64,000 nt of DNA, taken from assembly GCA_948144175.1 (NCBI GenBank), contig CANXME010002585.1:117539-181538 (forward strand). Reading direction: 5' to 3'. This document shows positions 3,473 to 59,850 of this stretch, one piece after another. This DNA is from Closterium sp. NIES-65. Taxonomy: Eukaryota; Streptophyta; Zygnematophyceae; Desmidiales; Closteriaceae. Both the position numbers and the translations under genes were made by a program. Position 1 is the first letter of the stretch. Each line of letters opens with the position of its first letter. A model generated the notes under the pieces. It worked only from the letters and a program-made list of their open reading frames with translations, made no database searches and had not been told where the DNA came from.

Positions 3473-3589
3473 AGTGAGAACTAACGCGAACAAACAGGCG
3501 AGTAACAACCGGGGAGAAGAGGCAAATTAGGGTTCAGGTGGGAAGGGGACTCAGTCGCAGCGGAAGAGCGGGCTAGGGCGACGGGCCAG

Positions 3590-4247: not shown

Positions 4248-4428
4248 CTTGGTATTCAGAGCCTACGATCTCATCTCGGACCGCATCCACACCTTCGCTT
4301 CCCACTATCTCAATTTTTGGGGGGGGTAGACGTCTCTCAGCGACACAGCACCGCCGCTCGTAGTGCTCTCTCGAAAGCACGCACGGCCACGACCGAGGCT
4401 CTCGCTGAGCTTGCCCGACACCCCCGCC

Positions 4429-5607: not shown

Positions 5608-5639
5608 AAATTGGGCCAACTACTGACGAGACTGCCTGC

Positions 5640-20314: not shown

Positions 20315-21739
20315 TTACGGGAAGTCTTGCACGGGCATCACTTGTCTAGCGCGCCCATACGCGGTATAAGCGCAGTCCACAGCAAGCACGTCGCTCGCCT
20401 CGTACGACCGCGGCGTGCCATCCAGGAACCCTTGCGCCTCCGCGCCGTCGGCGGAGATCGGACGGTGCAGGCTCGCGATCAGCTTCTGGAAGTCCGCGGC
20501 GCGCTGCGCGTGGTCTTCGCGGTACGTCTGCCCGAGCACGCCGTGGATCGCGTCGGTGTGCTCCAGCTCCGCAATGCCAACGTTAATGTGCGCCTCGGCG
20601 TCGCTCGGCGTCTGCAGCTTCGGGTGCGCCACGCGCAGGCGGAGGTCGAGCGAAATCAGGCCGTCGATCGTCAGCAGGTAGTAATCCACATCGAACGGCC
20701 CCTCCTTCTCCAGCCCACGGAACTGGATCGTCAGCCCGCCGTCGCTCGTCACGCTGTCGCCCACCTGCATGCGCGGGATCGCCTCGCCGTCAATCTCGAT
20801 GCTCTTCACGAACCCATCGCCGCGCTCCTGCTGCTTGCCGCCGCGCGCCGCGATGCGAATCTTGTGGTCGACGCCCTTGGCGGTCCACACAATGCCGAGC
20901 TCCTTAATCCACGTGTGCACGGCCTTGCCGTCGACGACTAGCGCCGCGTTGTCGGTGCGCTCGTCGTAGTACCCGCGCAGCAGCATGTTCACGTGCAGGT
21001 CGCGGTCCGTCAGCAGGCAGAACGCCTTGTCGGGGCGGCCGTTGAAGTCGAAGTGCGTGCCGTGCGCGCCCACCAGATGCGGGTCGTTGAGAATCTTGGC
21101 GCTCGGGTTGCACTCGCCACCGATGCGCACCTGAAGCGGCACGGGCTTCGTCTCCGTGCTGTACTGCGCGGTCATCTCTCCGCACGTGAAGTCGATCTGA
21201 TCGTGGATCAGGTAGCACGCGCCCTTGCCCTTCTTCCCGTCGATGGTAATATCGGGGATGTACTGCCAGTACGTGCACAGCGGCGTCGCGGCGCACGTGT
21301 TGCAGCACGACGCGGGGTTGGCCTTGAGAAGCGTGAGCGGGTTACCCGGAACGTACAGCTCGTACCCGAGCTTGTTCTTCTGCAGGTACGCCGTCTTCCA
21401 CTTGGCGGGAATGCCGCCCTTGGAGCAATTCTTGGGCGTGCACGCGCCCGCCAGCTCCTTGTTCAAACCCGGCGGGCATTTCTGCGCGTTCCACCCGGCC
21501 TTCTTCACATCAGCCATGAAAAACGTGTCCTGCGCCGTGTCAACGTATGTCACTCCCTCCGCGTTGCCCGCCGCCGCCTGCTTTGCGATGGCCGCGGGGA
21601 TTTCGGTCATGAGCCCGTCGTCTTTCTTGCTGCTCTGGTCGGGCTTCTCGTTCGCCGTCGAGCTTGTAATGGGGCTGCCGGCGCGCGCCGCCACGAGCAA
21701 CAGCGCGAGGGAGAACGCGAAAAGAGCAGATCGTGCCAT
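20315..21739 (-). CDS. Secreted root-cap/VWD-like protein with PAN-like domain (474 aa)
   Basis: A single-exon gene. Residues 1-20 form a clear signal peptide (MARSALFAFSLALLLVAARA), so the product should enter the secretory pathway. Residues 90-190 are Cys-rich. Within them, about 125-180 look like a PAN/apple-type fold (ASCCNTCAATPLCTYW, then GACYLI). From about 216 the sequence has the hallmark of the plant root-cap family (Pfam Root_cap, related to von Willebrand D): NDPHLVGAHGTHFDFNG, FCLLTDRDLHVN, then a beta-rich segment to about 440. No GPI signal or membrane segment is visible at the C-terminus. Family members are extracellular or mucilage-associated, but their biochemical role is poorly known. 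Start choice: this is the first ATG and it begins the signal peptide. Confidence 0.82.
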   Translation of the reverse strand: MARSALFAFSLALLLVAARAGSPITSSTANEKPDQSSKKDDGLMTEIPAAIAKQAAAGNAEGVTYVDTAQDTFFMADVKKAGWNAQKCPPGLNKELAGACTPKNCSKGGIPAKWKTAYLQKNKLGYELYVPGNPLTLLKANPASCCNTCAATPLCTYWQYIPDITIDGKKGKGACYLIHDQIDFTCGEMTAQYSTETKPVPLQVRIGGECNPSAKILNDPHLVGAHGTHFDFNGRPDKAFCLLTDRDLHVNMLLRGYYDERTDNAALVVDGKAVHTWIKELGIVWTAKGVDHKIRIAARGGKQQERGDGFVKSIEIDGEAIPRMQVGDSVTSDGGLTIQFRGLEKEGPFDVDYYLLTIDGLISLDLRLRVAHPKLQTPSDAEAHINVGIAELEHTDAIHGVLGQTYREDHAQRAADFQKLIASLHRPISADGAEAQGFLDGTPRSYEASDVLAVDCAYTAYGRARQVMPVQDFP

Positions 21740-22412
21740 TCTGGCGGTCGTGAAGGTTAATATATCTGGGGAACGATACTCTCTGAATTTGTGAGGACTC
21801 CTCGGATGAATGAATTGCTAACCCAAAGCATGTGAATACCCAATCTGTGTCCCGTGTTGCTACGTTGCTGAGTTGGTCTGAATCTCTTCAATGGCTGGAC
21901 TTCTATTTGCGAGACAAATTGGGTTGGAGTTGGTGTGTCGCCGAATTGTCCTTGCTGCGCTGCGGGCCTTCCCAAATGTTGCTGCTGGTAAAACTGCTCG
22001 AGATGGCACAAATCACGAACCGCAGGGCGAAACCGGAATGCATCTGACATCTGGATTTCCCTGCGACTTCGCTGAATGGAGACGCAGATGTATGTGGCAC
22101 GTGGATTCCAGCAGCGACACATCCAGAATTACCGTGTCGGCCCCAAAACTGTCACCACTTTCGTGTGATTGGTCGAGGGTTTTGAGCGGGTTTTTGACGC
22201 GATTGGTTCTCGATTTCCCCACCGAACCTGTCTCTTGGGTTTCCCGAACCTACATTTTTTTCGTTGACTTCGTTGTGTAATTCGGGGTGTGGCCTGATGT
22301 TCTGATTGCTTCTATATGGCCGATCTGTTTCATCTTCAGCAGGTGCAGCTTAATTTAACCGGGGTTCTTCCCCTAGATCTACCTTAAAAGATACACGACA
22401 TCATACACTACC

Positions 22413-22965: not shown

Positions 22966-23189
22966 CACACTTTATGTTGAGTAAAATGTAGAACTGGCAT
23001 TTCCATTATGCTTTTCCATGTCCCTATAAACAGTAAGGGAAAGGCAACACTGTGCTTCTTCGTACAGCCATGGCTTACTACAGAAAAGAATATCAAACTA
23101 GTGCACTGACATCAACTCATCAATCTTTTTGGACCAACCATAAAAAATCCAGTCCAAGGGCTTATTCATACGGCCTCATATCAAGATTG

Positions 23190-23614
23190 TGTTGGAATAA
23201 CCGAAAGGTTATATAAAGCATTCCCGAAGCTGTTCCACTGTACCAGTACCGCAATAGCTCATATAGAGCATGCGGAATGTTGAGAGTCACACGAAGGTCA
23301 ACCGTCTGAGAAAGTCAACGGTCGTGACCCTTGACAATCAAGTAACCGCGCGACAGTTAACTCACTGCAACATGGTAACTGTTGAGCATAGCAATAGTCA
23401 CAATTACTGTAGCCATGCAATACAGTTAATAAGGGAATGTACCCCTCAGAGTACATGGCTAGCTAGTTTTCTACTTAATCTCTTGTACTCCTATCTTTCA
23501 ATAATCTTGTTTACTTTCAATCATTATTCAACAAGGTCACTACAGAGACTTTATTGTCTCCTCACAGACTTAACAGATTCTATCCTATCCACTGAATCCT
23601 TGGTTATATCAGCA
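23190..23614 (+). repeat. Copia-4 5' LTR (425 bp)
   Basis: TGTTGGAATAACC ... TATATCAGCA. It is nearly identical to the 3' LTR; a few substitutions and one single-base length difference are visible. Confidence 0.94.
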
Positions 23615-23717
23615 TGGTATGAGAGCCAGAGTGGATTGTACGATCTGTCAAGTCCTCGTTCTTCTTAGAACAACCCCTTTATAAAGTTATTCATTACACC
23701 TCAAAGTCTGCAATCCT

Positions 23718-24960
23718 ATGGCTCCTGAAAGAAAAGCTACAGCAGACTCACCGGGCCCACCACCAGCATCGACTAACGCGCCATCAGCGGTGACCTCCGT
23801 CAGCGCCGCTGTCGTTGAGGAACTAGTCGCACGCATCAACGCTCTTGAGAGCCATCAAGCAATGAGCGTTGACGGCTCAAGCTATGCACGTGGCGTTGCT
23901 GGACTTCCTCTCCCTAGAGAAGACCGGCGAATCAACTCCGAGAGATCCTTCACCTTTGACAATCGTCAAGGGTCAGCTCCTGCACACGACAACCCACAAC
24001 GCTCACAGTCAGACATTGCTTCAATGCAAACCAAATTTGTAGTGACTTCAAAATTAAAGACCTCGACTCCTTTCGATGGAAAGGACTTCTACACGTGGAG
24101 TTTCGAGTTCGAGCTTCTCGCGACAACCGCTCAAATCTGGATGTACTACGACGGAAGCCTACCTTTTCCCTCGGAAGGTACCATCCGGGAGAAGCATCAA
24201 TACTACCAAGAATCCCTCCTCGCGTACACCGCTCTCCTTCGCAATCTCTCACCTGAAGAGCAGCTGGGCATTTGCCCTTATAAGACGGAGTGGGCTCCCG
24301 CGCAAGCCTCCTGGGAACACCTGCGCAACTCATACATGGCAAGAGATCCAGTTACGATGAGCCGTCTACTCAGCCAACTGACTTCAGTTAAAATGAAGCA
24401 AGGGGAGAAAGCGGGACCGTATGTCAACCGGTGCCGCAATCTGCGTGACCAAGTCAAGAAATGCGGTGGGACTTTCCCCGATAACATGTTCATCTCGATG
24501 GTCATCTCTGGCCTCGGCCCCGACTGGCGATAATGTCAGTCACTCCTTTGCGCCCGGGCAACCTTATCAGAGTCGGCTCTGTGCGCCACGCTTCTTTCGT
24601 AGCAGAAGGAAATCGACCAGTACAACGAGAAGAATGTTAAACGGGAGAAATTAGTCTTCTAAACAGGAGCATCACAAGGGGAACAACGCGGAAAGAAGGG
24701 AGCTTTCTGCAAATACTGCAAGAATTCTGGCCACTCTATCGACCAGTGCTACAAGCGTCAGGCTGCTGACGAGCGGCGCAACGCCTCCAGCCAGCAACCA
24801 TCGACGCAGACAAAGCCCTCCGCCACTCTGTCGCCTCCTTCCGTCGCCAGCACTTCCCAATCCTCTGCACTCATCACGGCGAAGGACAAAGGAAAAGGGA
24901 CAATCATAAGCTGCATGGCTCGACACAACAGAGGGTCCCGTTACTAGGATCGAACAACAT
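23718..24960 (+). pseudogene. Copia-4 gag, frameshifted
   Basis: The frame opens at 23718 (MAPERKATADSPG) and shows a coiled-coil N-terminus and a UBN2-type gag core (TPFDGKDFYTWSFEFE). It ends at a TAA at 24531-24533 just after GLGPDWR, where related gags continue. The following frames carry a CCHC knuckle CKYCKNSGHSIDQC (near 24710-24750), so gag once continued. One or more indels near 24530 and stop codons near 24655 and 24943 break it. Confidence 0.82.
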
Positions 24961-26792
24961 TCACTTGCGACGATCCCATCAACCCCGTTGCGCCCAGTCC
25001 AGACAATGACCCAACAGCTTTTACCTGGCCCTCTCGCCCCTCAGACATTCCTCCCGACTTCGAGCTCCCTCCCCCTACTCCGGAATCGCCGTCGAGCATT
25101 TCCGCAAACAGATATTTCGCCCTCTCACCGTACACCGGCGACCTCGATCGCATCGTCACACCCAAGATCGCCAACCTCGCCCGCCAGCGCTACGAGGATC
25201 TGGACACATGGTACCTCGACAGTTGCTGCGGACAACACATGGTGGGATCGCCAAGGTTCATCAGCAACTCCCGACGCATGCGACGACCCTACGAAATCAC
25301 TGCCGCCAACAATGGAAAAATGAAGGCATATGAGATTGGCGAAATCTACCTCGAGGCCGATGACACGAAGTTCACCATTCACATCGGGGACGTTCTCGTC
25401 GCCCCTGATCTACAATACAACTTACTCTCATCAGCTCAACTCATGCGGTGCGGAATCGACATTCGCAGCAATCGGAAGGAAAAGACCTTCGAGCTCTTCC
25501 ACAACGAAACTTAGATCGGAAAGACGATCGATAACGATGGAGTCTTCGTGCTGCAATTTTCGGCTCAGGGCACCACCGGCGACTCCCACCACACACTACT
25601 ACTGAAAACAACTCCCACGCAGCCGCCGACATGGTCACATCCCGACGAGATGGACCTCGAACGACCAACCTCCGACGGCCTTCTACGCTTGCGCACTGTC
25701 CCGACTGCCTCGACCTCCAACCCTGCAGAAACCGAAACCTGCCACAATGGAAGAAGACATCGGCACGTCAAGACCTGCAACTCAACCAACCGAGGAAAAC
25801 AAGACAGCGGAGACACACTGGCCGGGCTGGAACACTTCCGAGCCCGCGCTCGGACCCTGGGGAGAAGTACTAACTCCAGAAGAAGCAGCCGCAAGTTGGA
25901 GGGAAGCAGTTCGAGCAGAGGAAGTTGGCGCCAGAGGAGGATGGGGCACCACGGCCGAAGCAGAACAAAGGCACGCGGAAGCAGCTGGTTTTCCTCCTGC
26001 GGAAGTTGCCGTCGTCGACCCATACTGGGCAACTCGCGGCACCTGCTGGGGAGGTCCACCTCTCCCAGATCAATACGCCCCTGACACACCCGAGCAAAGG
26101 AAAAAAGGGTCAGAAGAAGAAGAAGCCTACGAATTTATGGGAGAACCAACAGAGTTACCTAAACCTACCGACGAGCCGGAGCCGCTAGTACAAGGACCAC
26201 AAGAAATTGAGGTCATCGGCGCTAAATACAGTTACTTCAGAATCCCCGTGAAGGGACTCCCAGTTCGGAAATGGCCCAACCAATGCCTGCTCGTTAGCGG
26301 AGACCAAGTCGAAGCCGGCGACACCGACGACATCATCGGTATTCCCCGCATGCTTCTAGAGCGAAATGCAATTCGCGCGCTCGCCGCTGACATCGACTCC
26401 GCCACCGACGCAGGACCTGAAGGGAGGCAAACGACGAAACAACACGGCAAAAATATTATCAAAGGACAATCGGTTACCGTGCGGACCCAGAAACATGGCA
26501 CCAATGGCTCGGCCATCCCTCCCACGCCACGCTCAAAAACTCGCTCAAAGCAGGAGTCTTCGACAACGACGCGCTTCTCCTCCCTCGAAACGGCTCGCTT
26601 ACCGCGGACTCACCTAACCCGCCATGCACCGTCTTCCCAACCGCGTCGCTCAATCACTAGGCGTTCCCCGAATTGCCCCCAGGGTATGAACGCTACAAGC
26701 CGCTGGACAAAGTCTACAGTGACTTTATGGTGCTCAGCAAGGAGGGGCTTGACGGGGAGCAGTACAGACTTACTTTCATCGACGCATCTACT
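24961..26792 (+). pseudogene. Copia-4 protease, extra acidic region and pre-integrase segment
   Basis: The protease active site reads LDSCCGQHM (near 25210) where a Gly after Asp-Ser is expected, so the catalytic loop is altered. The frame ends with TAG near 25513. From about 25750 to 26450 a Glu/Pro/Gly-rich open stretch without known domain separates protease from the pre-integrase block (HQWLGHPSHATL, near 26500). The integrase start (DKVYSDFMVLSKEG, near 26710) follows, cut at 26792 by the inserted compound element. Confidence 0.75.
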
Positions 26793-26937
26793 TTCAGAAT
26801 GTTATGTTTGTCTAGCCTGCAGTGGGGTACTCAATAGTGAGTACAGCCCAACTTAGGGTTTCCTATATGTACTCAACTGCTTGCTAGTGAACCCCTCTCT
26901 TCTTCATTCTAAACTTTCCTATTCTCGTTTCTTCTCA
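26793..26937 (+). repeat. First LTR of the compound element (145 bp)
   Basis: It starts TTCAGAATGTTATG, lacking one base of the usual TGTCAGAATG start, and ends TTCTCA before the primer-binding site. Confidence 0.82.
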
Positions 26938-27179
26938 TGCTATCAGAGCAGGTCGATCCCCTTGGATCGATCCTGTGGGTGGGCTCACCACCTCGTTGCT
27001 TCCGCTGCAACTTCCACTGCTACTCTCTGTGCCGCACGCCTCGTGGCGTGCGGCAGTTTTTCTTCCCGCCGTGCGCCCTGAGGCGCGCGGCGGTTTTCTG
27101 CCCGCCGTGCGCCCCATGGCGCGCGGCGGTTCTCTGCCCGCTGTGCGCCCCGATGCGCGCGGCGGGCTTCTGCCCCGTC

Positions 27180-27480
27180 ACTCGGCGCGTCGCCCTCGGG
27201 AGGCGTTGCGACGGGCGACGGGGACCCGCGCGTCGCCCTCCGTCGCCCGTCGTGGCCTGCGCGCGGCCCGTACAGGCTGCGTGCGGCCCGTAAGGGCTGC
27301 GCCAAACCCGGACGCGGCCCGTACGGGCTGCGCCAGGCCAGCGCGCGGCTCGTACGGGCTGCGCCAGGCCCGCGCGCGGCCCGTACGGGCTGCGCCAGGC
27401 CCGCGCGCGGCTCGGGCTGCCTACGCGCGATTCGGGCGGCTGTGCCAGGCCCGTGGGCGGCCCTTTCCTTGCTGCCCCTG
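27180..27480 (+). repeat. GC-rich tandem repeats in the first interior of the compound element
   Basis: Imperfect copies of GCGCGGCCCGTACGGGCTGCGCCAG-like units. They contain the palindrome CCCGTACGGG several times and would fold into stable hairpins. Open frames across them are by-products. Confidence 0.7.
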
Positions 27481-28208
27481 CCCTCCCCGCTGTCCCCCGT
27501 GCTTCTACTGGCGCCCCACCCCTCCTACAGCCCGTTCTCTTGAATTAGGGTTTGGGGGTGAGGGGTATGGGGGTGAAGCCACTGTGTGCCGTTCCCTGCT
27601 CCTCCTCCTCCTCCGTCTCCCTGTGCTGTAGCTGCCGCTGAGGGGGGGTGGACTTGGTGGAGCCGTTGGAGTGGTACTAAGGGGGGGTGAAGGGGGAGTG
27701 GAGCTAGCGGTGTAGCAGCGGGTGTGTGTCAGGGGGAGTGGGATAGTTTGGGGAGGTTGAAGGGGGTGGCCGCCGTGAAGCCAGCAGCTCCAGTCGCCCG
27801 TGAGACCGTTGCGCCAGTCGCCCGTGAGACCGTTGCGCCAGTCGCCCATGAGCCCGTTGCTCCAGTCGCCCGTGAGTGCGTTGCTCGTCTGCCGCTACTT
27901 TTAGCCGCGGAGACAGTTACTCCAGTAGCCCGTGTGCCAGTTGCTCCAGTTGCCAGTGTGCCAGTTGCTCAAGTTGTGCCGTGTGCCAGCAGCTTCAGCT
28001 GCCGCCCACTACCTCCTCTCCTCTCATAGTCTCTTTCCTCCTCCTCACTTGCCCGTTGTGACTACCACTAGCTTTGCTCATAATTGTGAACTTTAAACTA
28101 TTGCTTCTTGAACTTGTGCTCAGAATGTGTGGTGACATTGTGATCCACCCTGAGCTTGTACTGCTTTGCTTGCTCTGCTGATTACACCCCACTTTGGCTA
28201 TGGGGGTG

Positions 28209-28333
28209 TGTCAGAATATTATGCTCTAGCCTGTAGTGGGATGCTCTATAGCGAGTACAACCCTTCTAGGGTTTGCTATTTGTATCCTCATTCTTGCTAG
28301 TGCAATCCTCTTCTTTCTTTTAAAACTTTCACA
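28209..28333 (+). repeat. Middle LTR of the compound element (125 bp)
   Basis: TGTCAGAATATTATG ... ACTTTCACA, preceded by the polypurine tract and followed by the primer-binding-like TGTTATCAGAG. It therefore has the junction sequences of both a 3' LTR and a 5' LTR. Confidence 0.85.
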
Positions 28334-28419
28334 TGTTATCAGAGTGGTTCCGATCCTAGGACCCCACTGCTTCCGCTGCTACTCTGTGCTCGGCACGCCC
28401 CGTGGTGTGCCCCTCGCGC

Positions 28420-30020
28420 TTCTCTTAGCGGCCCCGTTGCCGCCCTTCCTAGCCCCTCGCAGTCCCTTCGCGGCCCCGTTGCCGCCCTTCCAGGCCCCTC
28501 GCGGCCCCTTCGCGGCCCCGTCGCCACCCCTTTCGCGGCCCGTCGCCGCCCTTCCGCGGCCCCGTCGCCGCCCTTTCAGCGGCCCCGTCGCCGCCCTTCC
28601 GCGGCCTCATCGCCGCCCTTTCAGCGGCCCCATCGCCGCCCTTTCAGCGGCCCCGTCGCCGCCCTTCCGTAGCCCCGACGCCGCCCTTTCCACGGCCCCA
28701 TCGCCGCCCTTCAGCGGCCCCGTCGCCGCCCTTCCGCGGCCCCGTCGCCGCCCCTTCAGCGGCCCCGTTGCCGCCACCCCTTCAGCGGCCCCGTCGCCGC
28801 CCTTCAGCGGTCCTGTCGCCGCCCTTTCAGCAGCCCCGATGCCGCCCTTTCCGCGGCCCCGTCGCCGCCCCTTACAGCGGCCCCGTCGCCGCCCTTTCAG
28901 CGGCCCCGACGCCGCCCTTTCCGCGGCCCGGTCGCCGCCCCTTACAGCAGCCCTGTCGCCGCCCTTTCAGCGGCCCCGACGCCGCCCTTTCCGCGGCCCC
29001 GTCGCCGCCCCTTACAGCGGCCCCGTCGCCGCCCTTCAGCGGCCCCGACGCCACCCTTTCCGCGGCCCCGTCGCCGCCCCTTACAGCGGCCCCGTCGCCG
29101 CCCTTTCAGCGGCCCCGACGCCGCCCTTTCCGCGGCCCCGTCGCCGCCCCTTACAGCGGCCCCGTCGCCGCCCTTCAGCGGCCCCGACGCCGCCCTTTCC
29201 GCGGCCCCGTCGCCGCCCCTTACAGCGGCCCCGTCGCCGCCCTTTCAGCGGCCCCGACGCCGCCCTTTCCGCGGCCCCGTCGCCGCCCCTTACAGCGGCC
29301 CCGTCGCCGCCCTTCAGCGGCCTCGACGCCGCCCTTTCCGCGGCCCCGTCGCCGCCCCTTACAGCGGCCCCGTTGCCGCCCTTTCAGCGGCCCCGACGCC
29401 GCCCTTTCCGCGGCCCCGTCGCCGCCCCTTACAGCGGCCCCGTCGCCGCCCTTCAGCGGCCCCGACGCCGCCCTTTCCGCGGCCCCGTCGCCGCCCCTTA
29501 CAGTGGCCCCGTCGCCGCCCTTCAGCAGCCCCGACGCCGCCCTTTCCGCGGCCCCGTCGTCGCCCCTTACAGCGGCCCCGTCGCCGCCCTTTCAGCGGCC
29601 CCGACGCCGCCCTTTCCGCGGCCCCGTCGCCGCCCCTTACAGCGGCCCCGTCGCCGCCCTTCAGCGGCCCCGACGCCGCCCTTTCCGCGGCCCCGTCGCC
29701 GCCCCTTACAGCGGCCCCGTCGTCGCCCTTTCAGCGGCCCCGACGCCGCCCTTTCCGCGGCCCCGTCGCCGCCCCTTACAGCGGCCCCGTCGCCGCCCTT
29801 TCAACGGCCCCGACGCCGCCCTTTCCGCGGCCCCATCGCCGCCCCTTACGCGGCCCCGTCGCCGCCCCTTCAGCGGCCCCGTTGCCGCCACCCCTCCAGC
29901 GGCCCCGTCGCCGCCCTTCAGCGGCCCCGTCGCCGCCCTTCAGCGGCCCCGTCGCCGCCCTTCAGCGGCCCCGTCGCCGCCCTTCCTCGGCCCCCTCGCC
30001 GCCTACAGCGGCCCCGGCCC
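28420..30020 (+). repeat. 1.6-kb minisatellite (about 22-23 bp units, higher-order about 67 bp)
   Basis: The base unit is CAGCGGCCCCGTCGCCGCCC with CTT or CTTT ends. It is arranged in a higher-order triplet of variants: GCGGCCCCGACG, CCGCGGCCCCGTCG and CCCCTTACAGCGG. The repeat keeps more than one reading frame open for hundreds of codons (28236-30272 and 28768-30435), but the products are Pro/Arg-rich repeats without domain or conserved start. I treat them as non-coding. Confidence 0.88.
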
Positions 30021-30206
30021 TGCCCCGGCCCTGCCCCGGCCATGCCCCGCCGCCAGCCGCGGCGCACCGGGGGCACGTGCACCGCCCCCCCCCCCCCTTT
30101 TCCCGTCGCCCGTCGCGGCTCCTTCGGGGGCCGCAACCTGGGGGGGGGGGGGGCGAGCGTCGCCCCTTCTGCCGCCTGCTTTGGCGCCCTGGGAGGCCGC
30201 GCGTCG

Positions 30207-30238
<32 letters not shown>
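30207..30238 (+). repeat. Poly-C run, 32 C
   Basis: An uninterrupted C32 at the end of the minisatellite part of the compound element. Its length is liable to sequencing and replication error. Confidence 0.85.
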
Positions 30239-30241
<3 letters not shown>

Positions 30242-30894
30242 CTACCCGCCATCCCCCCCTGCCCTGTGTTAGGGTTTGGGGGTGGCAAGAAGGGGGTGAC
30301 GGGTGTGTGGTCTCCCCTGCTCCTCCTCCTCCTTCGTCTCCCACTGCTGCAGCTGTCGCTGAGGGGGGTGGATGTGTGGGAGCCTGGGGTTTAGGGTTTA
30401 AGGGGGGTAGTGTGGGAGTGGAGCTAGGGTTTTGAGGGAGGTGGATGTGTGGGCGTCTGGGGTTTAGGGTTTACGGGGGTGCTGTGGGTGTAGGGTTAGG
30501 GTTTGAGCAGGGGGTGTGTGAGAGGGGCGTTGGGCAGCTGGGGGAGGTTGCGTGGAGGCAGCCGTCTTGTCGTCAGCAGCACCAGCAGTCCGGAGGCTAC
30601 AATCTCCGGTAGTCGCCAGTCGCCTGTGGGTCAGTTGCTCGTCTGCCGCTACTTTTAGCCGCGGAGCCAGTTACTCCTGTAGTCCGGGCCTTTGTTTAGG
30701 TAGCCACTGAGCCAGCAGCTCGTCTGTGTGTCTGCAGCGTTAGCAGTCGCCTCCCATCTTCTCTCCCCCACAGTCTCTCCTCCTCCTCACTTGCCCTCTG
30801 TGATTAGCTCTAGCCTTACTTACCTATTGTGAACTCCTGCTCTATGCCTGCTTGCTCATTGTGCTGATTACACCCCACTTTGGCTATGGGGGTG

Positions 30895-31030
30895 TGTCAG
30901 AATGTTATGTTTGTCTAGCCTGCAGTGGGGTACTCAATAGTGAGTACAGCCCAACTTAGGGTTTCCTATATGTACTCAACTACTTGCTAGTGAACCCCTC
31001 TCTTCTTCATTTTCATTCTCAATTTTCACA
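30895..31030 (+). repeat. Third LTR of the compound element (136 bp)
   Basis: It starts TGTCAGAATGTTATG after CTATGGGGGTG and ends AATTTTCACA, followed by the target duplication CTACT. Confidence 0.88.
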
Positions 31031-31035
31031 CTACT

Positions 31036-33654
31036 CGCTACGTCTGGGCCGTCAACACCGACAGCAGGTCTCTGGCCTTCGAGTGCTTCATTGCGTGGAT
31101 GAAGCGGGCTGAGCGACAGTCTGGTCTCAAACTCAAAACCTGGCAGACGGACGGAGCCTTGGAGTTCTTCTCAGACGAGTTCAAGGAGCTCCTCAAGCAG
31201 AAGGGGATTGAGCACCTGGTGTCCCTGCCCTACGCTCACCAACAGCAAGGAGTAGCAGAACGGACAAACAGAAGCCTCGCCACGCGGATGTGGGCCCTGA
31301 TGAAGTAGTCGGCCATCCCAACAAAATATTGGCCGTTTGCGATGAATCACGCTGTTCGGCTGCACAACTTGCTGTCCTCGCGAAGCCTTGAGAGCAACAA
31401 CTCTCCCTACCGAGTATGGACGGGCAGAAAAGCAGATACACGCCTGCTTCGGGTGTTTGGCTGCATGGTACAGTACAGACCCCACACTGCGAGAACCAGA
31501 AAATTTGTTGACCGGGCACGATGGGGCATCCATCTCGGGATCGAGAAGGAATTCAAGGTGTGGATCGTGCTGGACTACGTGACACACGAGGTGACGAAAT
31601 CACGTGACTGCATCTTCTACGAGAAGCTGACTTTGCCCCTTTTTAAGGAACACCAAGAAGCCGACAAACTTCCCGAGAGGCTCTTCGAGGGGCACCGCAG
31701 CTTCGCCACGTCACACGACGAAGCTGACCTGGCCGAGGATACAGACGCACCTGATGTCACCCCAATGGACTCCGCTCCGAGCATCCCCCTCACAAGCCAA
31801 TTCGGGACTCCGATATTCATATCTCTACACCAACCCGATCCTAACGATACAACTCGCGCGGCTCACGACTACAACAGCGAGGCGCGCCGATCGCCTGATG
31901 CCGAGTTACCACAACCCAACTTGTCGCAGGATACCCTCCGCCTCGACAACGACAGCGATGACGACGTGGTCGAAGTTACCAGCTTCCACGACTATGACCG
32001 ACTTCACTACGAAAAGACTGACGAAACCGGTCTCCGCGTTCTCGGCCTCGCCGTCGCTGTTCGCCACACCTCGCCCAAGGAACCAACCACAGTCCGCCAA
32101 GCCCTGTCTAGCCCCGACAGTGAAAAATGGAGAACAGCCATGGCCGCCGAAATCACGTCGCTGAAGAAACGTGGCACCTGGAAGCTAGTCCCTCGGTCAT
32201 CGGCAAAGGGGAGAAAAATTCTCTGCGGAAAATGGGTTTTCCGCATCAAAACACTCGCAGATGGCTCGGTCGACAAGTACAAGGTGCGTTGGGTAGTTCG
32301 GGGATTTGAGCAAACACACTTGGTGGATTTCACGCTCACCTATGCTCCAGTCGGCCGCCACACCTCGGTACGCATTCTCATCTGCATCGCCGCCGTCAAA
32401 CAGCGACCGCTCCGGCAAATCGACGTCGGCAGCGCCTTCCTCTACGCTCCCGTCGACGCCATCATTTTTGTCGAGCAGCCGCACGTATTCGAAGAAAACG
32501 ATGGCGCTATGTGCCTCCTCCAAAAATCCCTCTACGGAATCAAGCAGGCGCCTCGTCTATGGCAGCAGTACCTCCATTCCGTCCTCCTTGAGCTCGGCTT
32601 CACTCAGCTGCCGCACGACCTCGGAATGTACAGACGGGAATCGCGCGGGAAACTCATACTCCTCGTCGCCTATGTCGACGACCTTCTCTACACCGGCGAC
32701 GACACGGAGCTTCTGGACCAGTTTGAGGCCGACATAAAAAAGGAGCTGGAGGTAACAATCAATCACAATGTCACCCAGTTTCTCGGCCGCAATGTGACTC
32801 AGTCCGCCTCCTCCATTCACCTCTCCGCCACCAAGTACGTCGAAACACTCGCAAAGCGCTTCTCCATCGCACCAATCAACCTCACTACCCCCTATCGCAC
32901 TCCTCCTCCTAACCACGAGCCATACAACACACCGCTCTCTCCCGACAACCATCGTCTCTATCAGCAGCAGCTGGGATGTCTCCTGTTCGCCGCCGTCACG
33001 TGCCGGCCCGATCTCTCCTACGTCGCAAGCCAGCTCGCACAGTACCTGAAGCGACCTGAAGGGGAGAATCTACTAGATCTACGCCGAGCACTACAGTACT
33101 TCATCTCCACTCCCGACGTCGGCCTCACTTACGAAGCTAACCTCACCGCTACTCTGCAGCTCCATGGCTACGTAGATGCCGACCACGCTGGAGATGTTGA
33201 CAACCGACGCTCCCACACAGGATTCATTTTTCAACTCCAACGAGCGGGACTCATCTCCTGGAACTCTCAGAAGCATGAACTCATCGCCCTTTCGTCAGCA
33301 GAAGCAGAATTCATCGCAGCTAGCGCAGCTGTTCGCGAAGGACTGTACCTGATGGAGCTCCTGCAAGAAGCGAAAGTGACGATGAACGGGTACTTCTCGT
33401 TACTCTGCGACAATCAGAGCGCGATAAAAATCGCAAACAAACCCGGCTTCGTCAACCGCACCAAGCACATCGCCCTTCGTTACTTCTTCGTGAAGGATGA
33501 AATCGACAAAGGGAAAGTCAAGCTGACGTACTGCCCGACCGGTGACATGGCAGCTGACTTCTTAACGAAGAAGCTACCACGTCAGCAGTACCAACCCTAC
33601 GCCGACCTCTGCGGGATCACCAAGAAATCCCACGTGGCCCACCTTCAGGAATGA
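31036..33654 (+). pseudogene. Copia-4 integrase C-part, reverse transcriptase and RNase H
   Basis: Integrase resumes after the insertion with WQTDGALEF and GVAERTNRS. An in-frame TAG (31306-31308) interrupts it. The frame is then open for 770 codons (31342-33654). RT contains WVFRIKTLADG, LYGIKQAPRLW and YVDDLL (near 32670-32690). RNase H contains YVDADHAGD, SSAEAEF and DNQSAIKIA (33160-33440). The last codons reach the polypurine tract. RT-RNase H looks undamaged, but without a continuous upstream frame it cannot be made as a normal polyprotein. Confidence 0.9.
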
Positions 33655-33661
33655 AGGGGAG

Positions 33662-34085
33662 TGTTGGAATAACCGAAAGGTTATATAAAGCATTCCCGAA
33701 GCTGTTCCACTGTACCAGTACCGCAATAGCTCATATAGAGCATGAGGAATGTCGAGAGTCACCCGAAGGTCAACCGTCTGAGAAAGTCAACGGTCGTGAC
33801 CCTTGACAATCAAGTAACCGCGCGACAGTTAACTCACTGCAACATGGTAACTGTCGAGCATAGCAATAGTCACGGTTACTGTAGCCATGCAATACAGTTA
33901 ATAAGGGAATGTACCCCTCAGAGTACATGGCTAGCTAGTTTTCTACTTAATCTCTTGTACTCCTATCTTTCAATCATCTTGTTTACTTTCAATCATTATT
34001 CAACAAGGTCACTACAGAGACTTTATTGTCTCCTTACAGACTTAACAGATTCTATCCTCTCACTGAATCCTTGGTTATATCAGCA
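33662..34085 (+). repeat. Copia-4 3' LTR (424 bp)
   Basis: It begins TGTTGGAATAACC directly after AAGGGGAG and ends TATATCAGCA, followed by GATTG. It ends only 107 bases from the stop codon of the receptor kinase gene, which is transcribed towards it. Confidence 0.93.
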
Positions 34086-34191: not shown

Positions 34192-37100
34192 CTAAGCCGG
34201 GGGCATGGCCCCATAACTAAACACCCCGCTACGATCAAATCCGCTAGAATCAAACGACGCATCCAAGCCCTCCTCATATCCCCCCTCACCCCTCTCACCT
34301 CCACCTTCTCCCTCACCAAATCCCTCTCCTGCTCTGTATTCTTGATTAGGAGCAGCAACACCACCGCCACCACCAATTCGACCTGCATTCCCACCACTTG
34401 CGCCTGCTACAATGACACCTGCTCCAGTTGCGCCTCCCCCAGCAGCTGCCGACGCCCCTCGGAAGGCGGCAACTGGTGCAGGTTTCATCTGCACGCCTAC
34501 GTCGTGACTCACAACATAAGTTCCCCCAGTGCTTCTTGGATCATTTTGACCTGTTGGAACACAAGCACCATCAAGCTCTCTATCCCTCATACCCCGGATA
34601 TCCCCACCAGTGGCCTCAGAAGCACCTGCTGCTGCTACCCCTGCTGCTCTGCCCTTGTATGCTGGGGGTCCCGGTGTTCTTTTCGAGGATGGAGGAGGAA
34701 GAGGCGCATAACAAGCAGGGGTGGGTTGCGGTTGAGAGCGGTTAGGAGGGATAGGGGGGTCTGGGGTGAGAGGAGAATCACCAGCGTCAGAACGAGAAGG
34801 AGAGGCAGAGCTGATTGCTGCAGCCAATGCTGCACCTGCGGTACCTCCCACTGCCAAACCTTCCACCCCCGAGCCTGCCGCCGCCAAACCTGCCCCCCCT
34901 TCTCCACCACCCTGCCCCACCTGCTTCCCAGCTCCGGCAAACCGCGTCAGCCCCGCCCCACCCGGGCCAGCTCCCGAGCCTGACGGCGCGGTACGGAAGT
35001 CTGCCGAATCGTGAGACGGCGGTCCGGAGGAAATGAAGCGGGAAATCGCCTCCGGCTCAAGAACAGCCTCTAGCTCAGCCACAACTCGGGACATAGAGGG
35101 GCGGGCGGCAGGGTTCTGGATGTCGGTGCAGCGAAGGGCGAGGTCGAAGACGTGGTGAAGCTCGTCTGCAGGGTAAAGGCCCATGGTTGGGTCCACTATG
35201 GATGGTAATCCCCCTCTGTCAAACCGATCCTTCACCTGGGGAGGTTAAGGGGAGGGAGGTGGAATGGGGGGAAGGGAAGACATAGGTGATATGGAGGTGT
35301 TTGAGGTGGTTGAGTGCGGTGCAGTGCAGGGCGAGGTCAAACACATGGTGCAGCTCGTCTGCAGGGTACAGCCCTATGGTTGGGTCCACGATGGATGGTA
35401 AGTCACCCCTGTCAAACCGATCCTTCACCTGGGGGAGGATAGGGGCGAGGGACACAAGTGGAATTGGAGGGGTTTGAAGCGGTGAACTTCGGTGCAGTGC
35501 AGGGCAGGTGCAGCGCAGAGCAAGGTCGAAGACATGGTACAGCCCCATGGCGGGATATACTATGGCTGGCAGGTGGGGTTTAGGGAGAGGGAGAGAGGCG
35601 GTATGCGGTTGGGTGTGGTGCAGCTCGTCTGCAGGGTACACCCCTACGTGCCAAGTGGTGAGGTGTGATGTGAGCTCCCTTACCCCCACCCACCCAAGCT
35701 CCCTCACCTGATTCCGCCGGCCCAGCCCGCCTCAGCTCACATCGAATCGGTAGGGGCGGTTGACTTTGTGCGGCCCCTTGCCGGTGAGCAGTTCAAGTAG
35801 CACGATGCCGAGCGAGTACACGTCGATGCGCTTCGAGGAGTGCCCCGTGCGCAGATAGTCCGGGTCACAGTAGCCCTGGGGGAGATGGGTGAAGAGGAGG
35901 AGGTGGTGGGAGTATAGGCAGCAGGGTTAGGAGTGTGGGTTTGCTTGCCCCGCACACTGGTGCGGTAACATGTCGATGCGCTCGGAGGAGTGCCCCGTGC
36001 GCAGATAGTCCGGGTCGCAGTAGCCCTGAGGGGCGGAGAAAAGGCACAAGGGAGGGCAAACAAAGGCAGGGCGAGTGGGATGAAGGGACAGGGTAGGAAG
36101 TGCCCCCTGTGCAGATAGCCCGGGTCGCAGTAGCCCTGAGGGGGAAGGGGTTGGCGCGGGAGGGGGGTGTATGGGGGGCAGTATGGAATGGGATGAAGGG
36201 ACCGGGTAGATAGTCCGGGTTGCAGTAGCCCTGGGGGTGGGGAAAGTAGGGGGAAAGAGGGGAAGTAGGGAGGGAAGAGGGGAGGAGGGGGCTACTTCAG
36301 TACACACACCATTCCACTACTTCATAAACACTCATAACACGTGACGCGCTGCAGCAACGAGCACTCACAGAGGTGCCTTGGATGGTGACTGACATCTTCC
36401 GCAGCTCCTCGGGCGTCATGGGCTTGGACGTGCCAAAGTCAGCAAGTGGAACTGGACTCACTTGCCACTCAACTACCCGTGAGCACTCACAACAAGCACT
36501 CCCAAGAGCACTCACAGCGGTGCCTTGGATGGTTACTGACATCTTCTGCAGCCCCTCAGGCGTCATTGGCTTGGACGTGCCAAAGTCAGCAAGTGGAACT
36601 GGACTCACTCGCCACTCAACTACCCGTGAGCACTCACAACAAGCACTCCCAAGAGCACTCACAGCGGTGCCTTGGATGGTGACTGACGTCTTCCGCAGCT
36701 CCTCAGGCGTCATGGGCTTGGACGTGCCAAAGTCAGCAACCTTGGCCACCACGTGCCGGTCGATCATGACGTTGCTGGGCTTCACGTCCCGGTGGATGAA
36801 GGGTGGCGGAAAGGTGTGAGAGAGGTAGTAAGAGGTGGGCACTATCCAGCCCAAGAAACAGCACTCACAGCGGTGCCTTGGATGGTGACTGACATCTTCC
36901 TCAGCTCTTCCGGAGTCATGGGCTTGGTCGTGCCGAAATCAGCGATCTTAGCCACCACGTGGCGGTCGATCATGATGTTGCTGGGCTTCACGTCCCGGTG
37001 GATGAAGGGCACGTTGATCTCCTCGTGCAGGTATGCTAGTCCTCGTGCCGTGCCCGCTGCTATGAGGAGTCTTTCTGTCCAGTTGAGAGGCGGACGGCTG

Positions 37101-40042
37101 TGGCCTGTGTGGGTTTGCGAGAAGGGAGAAGAGAGGGGCAAGTGGAGGGAAAAGAAGGGGAGAAATGGGGTAAGGGATGAACGGCACGTTGATCTCCTCG
37201 TGCAGGTATGATAGGCCTCTCGCCGTGCCTGCTGCTATGAGGAGTCTTTCTGTCCAGTTGAGTGGCGGACGGCTGTGGCCTGTGTGGGTTTGCGAGAAGG
37301 GAGAAGAGAGGGGCAAGTGGAGGGAAAAAACGGGGAGAAATGGGGTAAGGGAGGAACGGCACGTTGATCTCCTCGTGCAGGTATGCTAGTCCCCTCGCCG
37401 TGCCCGCTGCTATGAGCAGGCGCTCTGTCCAGTTGAGAGGCGGTCGGCTGTGGCCTGTGGTGAAGTGGGGGAAAGGGAAGAGGGAGGAGGAGGGATGAAC
37501 GGCACGTTGAGTCGATCTCCTCGTGCAGGTATGCTAGTCCGTTCGCCGTGCCCGCTGCTATGAGCAGGCGCCCTGTCCAGTTCAGCGGGGGCCGGCTGTG
37601 GCCTGTGGGGTGGGGTGAAAGAGAGAGAATGGAGGAGAGAGGGTTGGGGAGAGGGAGGGAGTGGGGGTTATGAGGATTGAGGGGGGAGGGAAAGGGGCCC
37701 ACCGTCCCGGCCTTCCATACGAGGACACCCCAGCAACCTGGGATTCAAACTCCTCCTCCAATCACTCTGAAGCCAAATCATATTCACGCTCTCTCCAGGT
37801 GGGGTTGAGGTTCTGGGACAGGTCCCCTCCTGCCACGTACTCACACACTCGCAGCTGCTCCCCTCCTTCCGTGCAGTAACGCACCAAACACCCCTGCATC
37901 CACCCACCCCCCACAGACATCTGTGCACCCAAAGCTAAACCCTCTGAGCAGTTTAGAAGCTAATTCATATTCACGCTCTCTCCAGGTGGGGTTGAGGTTC
38001 AGGGACAGGTCCCCTCCCGCCACGTACTTACACACTCGCAGCTGCTCCCTCCCTCCCCGCACCACCGCACCAGCCACCTACACACGCATCTACCTGGCAT
38101 CAACCTGGCTTACAACCAGCCATACAAACGGTACGATTTCCCCAGGACCCAGGAGCCATACTCACGTTCTCTCCACGTCGGGTTAAGGTTCTGCGACAGA
38201 TTCCCTCCCGCCACATACTCATACACCAGCAGCTGCTCGCCTCCCTCCCTGCAGTACCCCACCAGTCGCACCAGGTTCTTATGGCTGACCCGAGACAGCA
38301 GCTCAATCTCCTTTCGGAATTTCCCTGCATCCTGCTTCCGGTCCGCCTTGGCTCTTTTCACCGCTACCACGTCCCCGGAGGATAATTTCGCCTTGTACAC
38401 CATTCCGTAGGTACCCTGCCCGAGATGGTTGCCCGAGGCGAAAGTGTTGGTGGCGTCTACAAGGACTTTCAGGGGAAAGCTGACCACCTTTTGGATGTCA
38501 AACGTCCCCGTGCCTCCACCTGAGCCTGGATCGTCAGGCTCGGGCCGAACCTGCTGCTGCTGTTGTTCTGCCTTTGCACGCACCGCCTCCTCCTCCTGCT
38601 GCTGCTGCTGCCTCTGCTGCTCCTCCTTTTTTAACCTCCGCAGCTGCTGCCGCCTATCCTCCTCCTCCTCATCTCCCCCCTCTTCCCCCCTTCTCTCCTC
38701 TTCTTCCTCCACCCCATCCCCCTCCCTTACCTCTCCACTCCCCACCCGCCCCCCTCTCCCTCTTCTTCCACCCGCCTCGCTCGTTGCCGCCTCCTTCCCC
38801 TTTCCCTTCCCCCTGTCCTCCCCGCCTTTGCTAGAGCTTCCCCCTCCCCCTCCGCCCGCCCCGTGCGCCCTCAGTTCCTCCTCCGGAGCCACAGAGGAAG
38901 TTACAGCCGCACCTGAGGTACCTGGGGATGGGGGTTCGAGGGAGGGAGGGAGGGGTGGGGGATGAGGGGGGAAAAGGGGAAAAGCTCAAGTCCGCGCCAT
39001 AGCCTCTCCGCCCTCCCCCTGCGCCATAGCCTCTCCGCCCTCCCCCTGCGCCCTCAGCTCCTCCTCCAGAGCCACAGAGGAAGTTACGGCCGCACCTGAG
39101 GCACCTGGGGGATGAACAGTCGAGGGAGGGGGGGAGTGGGGCGGAGGAAGTTCAACTCTGCTGCGCCTTCTGCACCTCCCCTCCCCCTCCGCCCTCCCCC
39201 TGCGCCCTAAGTTCCTCCTCCGGAGCCACAGAGGAAGTTACGGCCGCACCTGAGGTACCTGGGGATGGGGGAAAAGGGGGAGAAGGGGAAAATGCGGGTG
39301 AAGGGCGTGAAAAATGGGGACGTGAAGGGAACTGGGGGGGGAGAACGAGGTGAGCAACGAGGGGTGGGAGAGGGGAGCGGAGGGGACAGCGGGCGAGGGG
39401 GGTCTTAAGTGGGGAGAGGAAGGGCGGGGGGTGTGAGAGGAGGGTGGGGGCGGAAGGGGGGGGGGGTGGGTGAGTAGAAGACGTATAGCAGCCGCCTTCC
39501 AAGCAGCTGAGAACAACCTATCCGACACATTGCCTCAATAATTGCATACACGCTACTTGATTCCTTGTAACACCGGCGATGCATTTCCCCAGCACACCTG
39601 AAGATTCTCCTGGCCGTCTGGGCGGCAGTCGCTTCCATAGCATGCACGCGACCACTGTAGCACCCATCGATACAAGCACGGACACCGCGAGAGCCACCAC
39701 CAGCGCTACAACCACAACCGTGTCGCTGCTGCTGCTTCCGCTGCTGCTGCTCCCGCTGCTATTTCCGCTGCTGCTGCTGCTGCTCCCGCCATTGCTCGCG
39801 CTACTGTTCCCGCTGGAGTCAGCAAGCAGCGTTCTACGCGGCCACCGTGGTGAGCTTGTAACGGGTTCGGCTGGCAAGTCGCGACCGGACGCTTCCGCCG
39901 ACGGCGTTTGCACTTGCGCGCAGGAGCGCGCGGCGGAGCTGGCCAATATAGCGGCGACGAGAACCACGTTAAACGATAATATGAGAAGCGCGGGGAAAGG
40001 CCGTGTCTGCATGCTTAAATCGCGGCTCCAACAGATGCTCAT
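34192..40042 (-). CDS. Receptor-like protein kinase, 5 exons, 871 aa
   Basis: Exons: 40042-39598, 38921-38166, 37104-36869, 35875-35741, 35235-34192. All junctions are GT-AG, phases agree and the joined frame is 2616 bases. Exon 1: signal peptide (better from the second Met, residue 11), a Ser/Gly-rich ectodomain of only about 70 residues, and a membrane span ending VACMLW. Exon 2: a charged Glu/Arg/Gln-rich juxtamembrane coiled coil, then the kinase N-lobe with [18 protein letters not shown] and FRKEIELL. Exon 3: [21 protein letters not shown], the HRDVKPSN catalytic loop and the DFG motif (ADFGTTK). Exon 4: GYCDPDYL after GTA, then [16 protein letters not shown]. Exon 5: the kinase C-terminus with DLALRC and RPSMSRVV, then about 280 residues of Gly/Ala/Pro-rich tail. 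All catalytic residues are present, so a membrane Ser/Thr kinase is likely. The ligand is unknown. The introns hold partial exon copies, annotated separately. Confidence 0.85.
35300..35660 (-). repeat. Intron 4: two partial copies of the 5' end of exon 5
   Basis: The nearer copy starts at 35428 with its own CCCCCAG acceptor and reads [31 protein letters not shown], then departs. The farther copy (about 35640-35500) keeps YPADELHH and [12 protein letters not shown] with an internal interruption. They match the real exon 5 start at 35235. Confidence 0.85.
35960..36230 (-). repeat. Intron 3, distal half: three partial copies of the 5' end of exon 4
   Basis: Copies start at 36025, 36135 and 36230, each after a C(C/T)CAG or CCCAG acceptor. 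They read [30 protein letters not shown] and GYCNPDYL. Each copy further from the real exon 4 (35875) is shorter. Confidence 0.87.
36366..36805 (-). repeat. Intron 3, proximal half: three partial copies of the 3' end of exon 3 (147-bp period)
   Basis: The motif TGCCTTGGATGG occurs at 36374, 36521, 36668 and, in exon 3 itself, at 36874. The first three are exactly 147 bp apart. Each copy encodes [12 protein letters not shown](E/G)L(R/Q)K and TIQGT(A/S) and ends with a GTGAGTGC donor. The copy nearest the exon also retains the HRDVKPSN segment but lacks a visible acceptor. Since 147 is a multiple of three, one frame (36854-36297) stays open through all three. Confidence 0.9.
37180..37605 (-). 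repeat. Intron 2, distal half: three partial copies of the 5' end of exon 3
   Basis: Each has a CACAG acceptor followed by HSRPPLNWT(E/G)RLLIAAGTA and YLHEEI, then diverges. The word TGGCCTGTG occurs at 37101 (the real exon), 37276, 37451 and 37599, that is at spacings of 175, 175 and 148 bp. Confidence 0.9.
37770..38090 (-). repeat. Intron 2, proximal half: two partial copies of the 3' end of exon 2
   Basis: Both encode YVAGGDLS(Q/L)NLNPTWRE, matching [17 protein letters not shown] at the end of exon 2, at spacings of 187 and 191 bp. The donor has mutated from CGTGAGT to CGTGAAT in both copies. Confidence 0.88.
39045..39268 (-). repeat. Intron 1: two partial copies of the 5' end of exon 2
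   Basis: Both have a CCCCAG acceptor and encode G(T/A)[10 protein letters not shown](P/L)EEELRAQG, as exon 2 does from 38921. GCGCCCT repeats at 38865, 39048 and 39202 (spacings of 183 and 154 bp). Confidence 0.87.
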
Positions 40043-47920: not shown

Positions 47921-55525
<7,605 letters not shown>

Positions 55526-58739: not shown

Positions 58740-59850
58740 TGCCCGGAGCGCGCTCAGCCCTAGCCCGAGTCGCGCTCCCCCTTTTCTCCCCCCGTCGCGC
58801 CGCCCTAGCGGCCCCGTCACCTGCCTTGCGGCCCTCGCGCCGCCCTTCCTGGCCCCGACCCGCCGCCCTGCGGCCTCGTCCCCTACCCCACGGCCATCGC
58901 GCCGCCCTTTTCCGGCCCCGATCCGCCGCCCTGCGGCCTCGTCGCCTACCCAGCGGCCCTCGCGCCGCCCTGCGGCCCTGACGCCGCCCTTACCGGCCCT
59001 GGCGCCTACCTGCGGCCCCGACGCCTACCTATGCGACCCCGGCGCCTACCTGCTGGCCCCGCCACCTACCTGCGGCCCCGCCACTTACCAGCGGCCCCGC
59101 CTCCTACCTGCGACCCCGCCACCTACCAGCGGCCCCGCCACCTACCTGCAGCCCCGCCACCTACCAGCGGCCCCCGCCACCTACCTGCGGCCCCGCCACC
59201 TACCCGCGGCCCCGCCACCTACCTGTGCGGCCCCGGCGCCTACCTGCTGGCCCCGCCACCTACCTGCGGCCCCGCCACCTACCAGCGGCCCCGCCACCTA
59301 CCTGCGGCCCCGCCACCTACCCGCGGCCCTGCCACCTACCTATGCGGCCCCGGCGCCTACCTGCTGGACCCACCACCTACCTGCGGCCCCGCCACCTACC
59401 AACGGCCCCGCCACCTACCTGCGGCCCCGCCACCTACCCGCGGCCCCGCCACCGACCTGTGCGGCCCCGACGCCTACCTGCGGCCCCGCCACCGACCTGT
59501 GCGGCCCCGACGCCTACCTGCGGCCCCGCCACCTACCAGCGGCCCCGCCACCTACCTTTGCGGCCCCGCCGCCTCCTCTCAGCGGCCCCGCCGCCTCCTC
59601 CCAGCGGCCCTGGACGCCGCCCTCTCAGCGGCCCCGCCGGACCGCCCACCAGCCGAGCTGCCCAGCAGCCGAGCCACCTAGCCGCCGAGCCGCCCAGCAG
59701 CCGAGCCGCCCAGCAGCCGAGCAGCCGAGCCGCCGAGCCGCCCAGCAGCCGAGCCGCCGAGCCGCCCAGCAGCCGAGGCGCCGAGCCGCCCAGCTGCCGA
59801 GCCGCCGAGTCGCCCTGCAGCCGAGCCGCCCGAGCCGCCCTGTCCGGTAA
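58740..59850 (+). repeat. GC-rich minisatellite in the Copia-3 leader
   Basis: About 18-20-bp units around CGGCCCCGCCACCTACCTG (59030-59560), then GCCGAGCCGCCCAGCA units (59650-59830). Open frames here (59031-59681, 59225-59902) read as Pro/Arg repeats and are not taken as genes. Confidence 0.85.

Follow-up and report, generated by a model that had tools for sequence, protein, structure and literature searches.

Introns of a Closterium receptor-like kinase gene, and of unrelated genes, carry tandem copies of their own exon borders

Intronic minisatellites (VNTRs) are built of tandem units, differ in copy number between near-identical loci, and are homogeneous while young. Duplicated or mutually exclusive exons also place extra exon sequence in introns, each copy with both of its splice sites. 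Two described routes of intron gain likewise start from a tandem duplication: in an RdRp gene of potato, an intron was gained by duplication across an intron-exon boundary (PMC4974935, consulted in part), and in the tandem genomic duplication model with AGGT, an exonic segment is duplicated and a new intron results (review PMC3443670, also consulted in part). The Closterium genome paper, in the parts consulted, gives introns as averages (PMC10407611), and among the matches listed in a literature search of open-licence papers (title and start of abstract), there was no account of genes built from junction arrays genome-wide. Within this literature, parts of which were consulted, single border-crossing tandem duplications are already known, and arrays at many junctions of many genes, with turnover, were not found.

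The 64-kb stretch of Closterium sp. NIES-65 DNA that was analysed (the window) carries, on the minus strand at 34192-40012, a five-exon gene for a plant-type receptor-like kinase of 861 aa, which we refer to as gene A. Joining exons 40012-39598, 38921-38166, 37104-36869, 35875-35741, and 35235-34192 gives 2,586 nt without an internal stop that encode one kinase domain (Pfam PF00069, E=7.4e-45), in agreement with the claim of the preliminary description that the ordinary five-exon path yields a complete kinase. By sequence, this domain is closest to plant RLKs (RLK/Pelle), with BAK1, SYMRK, and CERK1 among the best solved structures. Judged by eye, exon 1 has a signal peptide-like start, a Ser-rich stretch, and a membrane-spanning-like stretch; edge copies of this exon were looked for and none were found. 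Introns 1-4, of 676, 1061, 993, and 505 bp, hold partial copies of the edges of the other exons. The exons (from translation) and the copies are as follows:

39598..40012, minus strand, exon 1, donor AG/GTGTGC
39178..39258, minus strand, exon 2 start copy 1 in intron 1, acceptor CAG retained
39030..39104, minus strand, exon 2 start copy 2 in intron 1, acceptor CAG retained
38166..38921, minus strand, exon 2 (N-lobe of the kinase)
37975..38072, minus strand, exon 2 end copy 1 in intron 2, donor GTGAAT, 1-nt deletion
37788..37885, minus strand, exon 2 end copy 2 in intron 2, donor GTGAAT
37493..37602, minus strand, exon 3 start copy 1 in intron 2, acceptor retained, 5-nt insertion
37350..37454, minus strand, exon 3 start copy 2 in intron 2, acceptor retained
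37175..37279, minus strand, exon 3 start copy 3 (c3) in intron 2, acceptor retained
36869..37104, minus strand, exon 3 (HRD and DFG stretch)
36663..36803, minus strand, exon 3 end copy 1 (141 nt) in intron 3, donor GTGAGT
36516..36590, minus strand, exon 3 end copy 2 in intron 3, donor GTGAGT
36369..36443, minus strand, exon 3 end copy 3 in intron 3, donor GTGAGT
36208..36230, minus strand, exon 4 start copy 1 (23 nt) in intron 3, acceptor retained
36099..36135, minus strand, exon 4 start copy 2 in intron 3, acceptor retained
35968..36025, minus strand, exon 4 start copy 3 in intron 3, acceptor retained
35741..35875, minus strand, exon 4
35489..35569, minus strand, exon 5 start distal copy in intron 4, without acceptor
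35317..35428, minus strand, exon 5 start copy in intron 4, acceptor retained
34192..35235, minus strand, exon 5 (end of the kinase domain, Gly/Ala-rich tail, terminal stop codon)

About 15 partial copies had been described, and exactly 15 were recovered in the described order: two each of the exon 2 start, the exon 2 end, and the exon 5 start, and three each of the exon 3 start, the exon 3 end, and the exon 4 start (a further 31-bp exon 5 piece in intron 4, at 35616-35646, is left out of this count). Start copies had been said always to lie upstream of their exon with an acceptor, and end copies always downstream, most with a donor. Placement and donors were as described throughout, and the acceptor is lacking in the distal exon 5 copy; AG or GT is thus retained in 14 of the 15. 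Spacings are 154/183 bp for the exon 2 start, 191/187 for the exon 2 end, 148/175/175 for the exon 3 start, 206/147/147 for the exon 3 end, 95/110/150 for the exon 4 start, and 193 and about 189 for the exon 5 start. The range of 147-206 bp given earlier for the exon 2 and exon 3 arrays stands, and the gene A arrays taken together span a wider one, from 95 bp.

The copies are 75-95% identical to their exon, and all are incomplete, none extending to more than one exon edge. They belong to head-to-tail repeat units that are composed of an exon part and an intron part and span the exon-intron border. Young units match across both parts (58/60 intron and 56/60 exon bases are alike in the last two exon 3 start units, and 59/60 and 65/70 bases in two exon 3 end units), and older units match mainly in the exon part, their intron parts being gapped. 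Repeats counted at E up to 1e-3 and offset up to 600 cover 2,477 of the 3,235 intron bases (391/676, 954/1061, 766/993, and 366/505 in introns 1 to 4); a chance origin was rejected, since none of 100 dinucleotide-shuffled versions of the introns had any repeat cover. A window-wide repeat scan found no other gene with arrays at several junctions in the rest of the window, which has minisatellite or simple stretches at about 14.7, 18, 27-30, 58.8-59.8, and 63 kb, besides a handful of isolated repeat pairs (9286, 10824, 48377, and 63314).

Gene A thus shares with duplicated exons the presence of extra exon sequence in introns, but its copies cannot serve as cassette exons because they are partial and carry at most one of the two splice sites. 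The potato RdRp case is alike in that the duplication crosses the border and carries the acceptor, the pyrimidine tract, and the exon start, and differs in being one duplication that made a new intron (PMC4974935, in the part consulted); in Closterium, existing introns are lengthened, at many junctions, by many units, and in unrelated genes, with turnover and exon-copy exchange. The AGGT model also invokes an internal tandem duplication of coding sequence that is then hidden by splicing (PMC3443670, in the part consulted), whereas the Closterium units span old junctions and the five-exon path of gene A needs no extra intron. Introners (the subject of PMC9860276) are comparable in their wide spread of intron sequence in a genome, but there the same element is dispersed in many genes, and no such dispersed element was seen in the Closterium search. 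A dispersed mobile element was rejected on these grounds: among the matches listed for a 360-base junction query, 11 in number, 10 lie in the four copies of the kinase gene and one is weak (78% over 73 bases).

These four gene copies were found by searching the assembly (874,075,685 bases in 2,400 contigs): gene A in the window, gene B about 86 kb from it on the opposite strand, and A' and B' on contig C794. Exon identity is 97.5-100% between A' and A, 97.4-100% between B' and B, and 92.6-96.1% between A and B. All four carry exon-edge arrays, in which some copy numbers are common and others differ: there are three exon 3 start copies in A and one in A', and 24 exon 5 start copies in B and five in B', where intron 4 measures 5,159 bp and 1,354 bp, respectively. 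In gene B, 18 of 19 neighbouring 201-bp units compared are 98-100% alike. Since copy number differs between near-identical duplicates, turnover of the exon-edge copies is recent. The variable copy number and the homogeneous array in intron 4 of gene B are features of intronic VNTRs, but the Closterium unit holds a splice site and a coding exon edge, and many junctions have a unit of their own. Gene B may be impaired; its exon 3 has 5 nt fewer than that of A, and its intron 3 acceptor reads CCCAAG. One B' match carries a stop. Most matches in the genome, whichever gene is searched for, come as near-identical contig pairs (differing by 0.03-1.7% in 12 pairs that were compared, all of CCT loci), which agrees with the copy-number variation known from Closterium.

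At exon 3, an intronic copy and an exon have apparently been exchanged. The exon 3 start of A' differs from the intronic copy c3 of A by one mismatch in 105. It differs from the exon 3 start of A itself at six of 105 sites, all of them silent, and A' has the letter of c3 at all six; the other four exons of the two genes together show 12 differences in 2,350 sites. The present exon 3 start in A is mosaic, in that gene B agrees with A at four of the six sites and with A' at two, and with this split the swap can be read in both directions, from exon into intron or the reverse. Units thus appear to move between intron and exon, with diverged homologous sequence involved, as far as this tract, which is one event, allows. 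Parts of exons covered by copies are not significantly enriched in differences between A and A' and between B and B' (14/1167 vs 31/3957, p=0.21), and 12 of these 14 differences have the letter of the partner in some copy. A common break point of start and end copies within an exon, as exon 3 of A and exon 4 of B suggested, is not established: a test of 12 of 14 exons, the two longest being omitted, gave p=0.0085 under one null and 0.30 under another.

The arrays extend beyond kinases. A profile search of the genome for chaperonins (PF00118) gave repeated partial exon matches, and five CCT genes were read, three of them picked because the search had already shown partial matches and two (C1757 and C1133) picked independently of such matches. 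Local direct repeats abound in all five. An exon start has its copy upstream in 24 alignments, and an exon end has its copy downstream in 20; the reverse placements number 0 and 0, and 13 alignments are unclassed; the placement rule is thus obeyed in 44 of 44 classed alignments, those within one array not being independent of each other. Edge copies occur at 22 of 26 CCT exon cores, or 30 of 36 including A and B' (the HMM-defined cores possibly extending a few bases into introns), and the distance from an exon edge to its nearest copy is 117-298 bp with a median of 159 (34 CCT edges), a length that, as a passing remark, is similar to that of a nucleosome. Among 12 further-sampled CCT exon stretches (3 kb each, with a near-identical partner), the central exon is copied at least once in ten, and two have no copy of it. 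One (L051) of two near-identical CCT stretches has a fresh 220-bp tandem unit that is identical to its neighbour at 219 of 220 positions.

Repeat families number 13.1 per 10 kb in seven genes (the five CCT genes, A, and B') and 0.95 in seven control stretches, which were hand-picked away from the minisatellites of the window and hold four families in 42 kb, three of them in one control (L013). The seven genes have 53 families, and 42 of these overlap a known exon. Among the other 11, four contain chaperonin exons missed by the first search. Three of five peptides from exon-less families match chaperonins (Pfam, below the curated cut-off; two also in PDB), and the remaining two, from three families of locus L065, had no Pfam match, nor did the one tried against PDB match there. 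Up to seven of the 53 families therefore have no detected exon, four of these seven lying outside the peptide look-up. Duplications inside exons account for none of the 53 families; in 14 kinase loci, several of them near-identical, no repeat family lies within the longest reading frames (25.6 kb) and 17 lie in the flanks.

MCM genes may carry the same arrays, as is hinted by match positions for PF00493: 14 pairs overlap, nine of them can be classed (two are unclear and three of equal length), and all nine obey the placement rule, in four of eight genes. Full-gene CCT and MCM counts used one contig of each near-identical pair (for MCM, eight contigs with 43 of 86 matches). A kinase-only phenomenon is ruled out by the CCT arrays and the MCM match order, which also tell against the gene-specific instability raised earlier as an option.

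Copies differ from their exons mainly at silent sites. In the kinase, the nearest copy of each array compared with its exon gave pS 0.281 and pN 0.040 (ratio 0.142); simulated neutral copies had a mean pN/pS of 0.57-0.61 and never fell below 0.36 in 2 x 400 runs. Taking the farthest copy of each array instead raises the ratio to 0.306, a value as low as which was seen in 0 of 400 neutral runs and which 399 of 400 full-constraint runs equalled or undercut; over all four neutral settings, the means were 0.57-0.63, with 0 of 400 runs as low as observed in each. These farthest copies fit neither neutral drift nor full constraint. The 56 CCT copies gave pS 0.275, pN 0.056, and a ratio of 0.20, with differences of 103/92/338 by codon position. 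Kinase paralogy as the whole source of the synonymous divergence was dropped, as the CCT genes share the bias. A diverged source of the CCT units was sought, and the 12 CCT loci compared have near-identical partners only, whose divergence of 0.03-1.7% is far below the copy-exon synonymous divergence of about 0.28.

Recent changes follow another pattern. In 14 near-identical locus pairs, the copies hold 28 changes, where the rate in the sequence around them predicts 27.0, a result that leans on the kinase, with 24 of the 28 from A/A' and B/B' and four seen versus about 5.0 expected in CCT genes. By codon position, these recent differences are 8/8/12. The kinase exons also show little codon bias between partners (4/3/6 for A/A' and 10/8/9 for B/B'), and gene B in particular may be under weak constraint. 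Changes private to a single kinase copy, counted at sites covered by at least two copies, are 28 nonsynonymous and 18 silent, versus 8 and 20 for changes by which the exon stands apart from every copy (p=0.009). A first, unmatched contig comparison had suggested that copies are more conserved than introns (4/2,667 vs 158/32,469); this signal was gone after matching by locus and dropping gap-flanking bases. The copies thus do not seem to be kept by selection at present. Because copy-exon differences are mostly synonymous although the copies now drift like intron, copies and exons would have diverged mainly while both lineages were working exons.

We consider it likely (probability about 0.7) that the arrays result from tandem duplications across splice junctions, which are hidden by splicing and turned over by unequal exchange with an occasional swap of exon edges. 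The introns carry what can be called splice-junction minisatellites, in which each tandem unit spans one exon-intron border and the spacing of the nearest unit is mostly 120-220 bp. A unit by the donor adds exon ends downstream of the real donor, and a unit by the acceptor adds exon starts upstream of the real acceptor; a complete exon would come only from the unit continuous with the rest of the exon, and splicing would presumably leave the five-exon mRNA unchanged. Selection would tolerate such border duplications, and duplications inside exons would be lost because they change the protein. Units are gained and lost in the arrays, in all likelihood through unequal exchange, and now and then this would swap an intronic copy with the functional exon edge, in either direction. 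If units are drawn from diverged homologous genes or alleles and each copy resides in the intron only briefly, silent divergence would follow. Subtracting the array spacings from the introns of gene A leaves, very roughly, 120-340 bp, which is close to the unit length, so that most duplications touching such an intron must span a border; geometry and selection may suffice, with no border-seeking machinery needed. Of the interpretations in the preliminary description, which are supported in part when taken together, the one in which introns grow as segments at splice junctions are tandemly duplicated again and again is supported by the junction-spanning units and the fresh 220-bp CCT unit.

Other readings account for some of these observations. 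It is unlikely that the arrays are decoy or alternative splice sites kept by selection to tune productive output, e.g., via non-productive transcripts. Such a role would fit the splice dinucleotides kept in 14 of 15 kinase copies and, by eye and uncounted, in many CCT copies, but short residence alone would preserve them, recent changes in copies are as frequent as in introns and are spread evenly across the codon, near-identical duplicates differ widely in copy number, and housekeeping CCT genes carry arrays too. Ordinary neutral intron decay, in which the copies are plain self-duplicates of the present exon edge that have drifted since without exchange, has a slightly smaller chance of being correct: the unit anatomy and the recent neutral drift agree with it, whereas the observed pN/pS (0.14 in the kinase, 0.20 in CCT) is much lower than expected for copies drifting since the split, and in A' the exon 3 start corresponds to an intronic copy of A.

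We give little credence to the copies being functional alternative exon parts under protein-level selection in place. The mainly synonymous deep divergence and the rarity of in-frame stops (0 of 15 kinase and 2 of 56 CCT copies) would be expected of them, but at the broken end, start copies lack a donor and end copies an acceptor (by eye), and frame-breaking gaps occur in 19 of 56 CCT copy alignments. A present coding function is also disfavoured by the intron-rate, codon-even recent changes and by the private-change ratio in the kinase copies. An assembly artefact, for example from haplotypes left unmerged or paralogues joined head to tail, is very unlikely: many matches do lie in near-identical contig pairs, but the copies of gene A are 75-95% identical to their exon, the arrays are alike in position and content in A, A', B, and B' on two contigs, some units are 98-100% identical and others far less, and the NIES-65 assembly rests on PacBio reads with an N50 of 30 kb, longer than the arrays (PMC10407611, in the part consulted).

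Duplication across splice junctions, with splicing and exchange, bears on the old question of why introns grow and where their sequence originates, as in this alga intron growth can be seen to start from the adjoining exon borders, in genes that are unrelated and with intermediates of different ages. These differing ages, together with the near-identical duplicates, make the rates and the mechanism of intron growth measurable. Exon edges may be replaced by this route with the protein unchanged. The arrays are also a hard test of splicing, since the spliceosome has to ignore several closely similar sites that lie no more than a few hundred bases from the correct one, and gene predictors and synonymous-rate dating could be misled in such a genome. 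More tentatively, and at somewhat less than even odds, most introns of most multi-exon genes in this alga would be built from such arrays, which would be the main route of intron growth and a genome-wide store of alternative exon edges, neutral for the protein, that unequal recombination would exchange with the working exon time and again.

The window also contains other repeats and reading frames. A Copia-type LTR retrotransposon at 23189-34085 has its right end about 100 bp past the gene A stop; its LTRs are direct repeats (23189-23614 and 33661-34085, 97.7% identical), and it encloses gag-like (PF14223) and RVT_2 reading frames. More Ty3-like and Copia-like retroelement frames lie at 4330-8290, 12880-13890, 2-3526 (minus strand), and 62488-63999. 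GC-rich minisatellites at 28427-30016 (23/139-bp units) and 58770-59840 (19/117-bp units) have a mutual likeness of about 67%. A single-exon reading frame at 20315-21817 (minus strand) has PAN-like and Root_cap-like matches, which we take to be a streptophyte sign. A TGC-type trinucleotide run at 53016-53233 (about 73 units, 94% matching) sits within a long minus-strand reading frame at 47921-54502.
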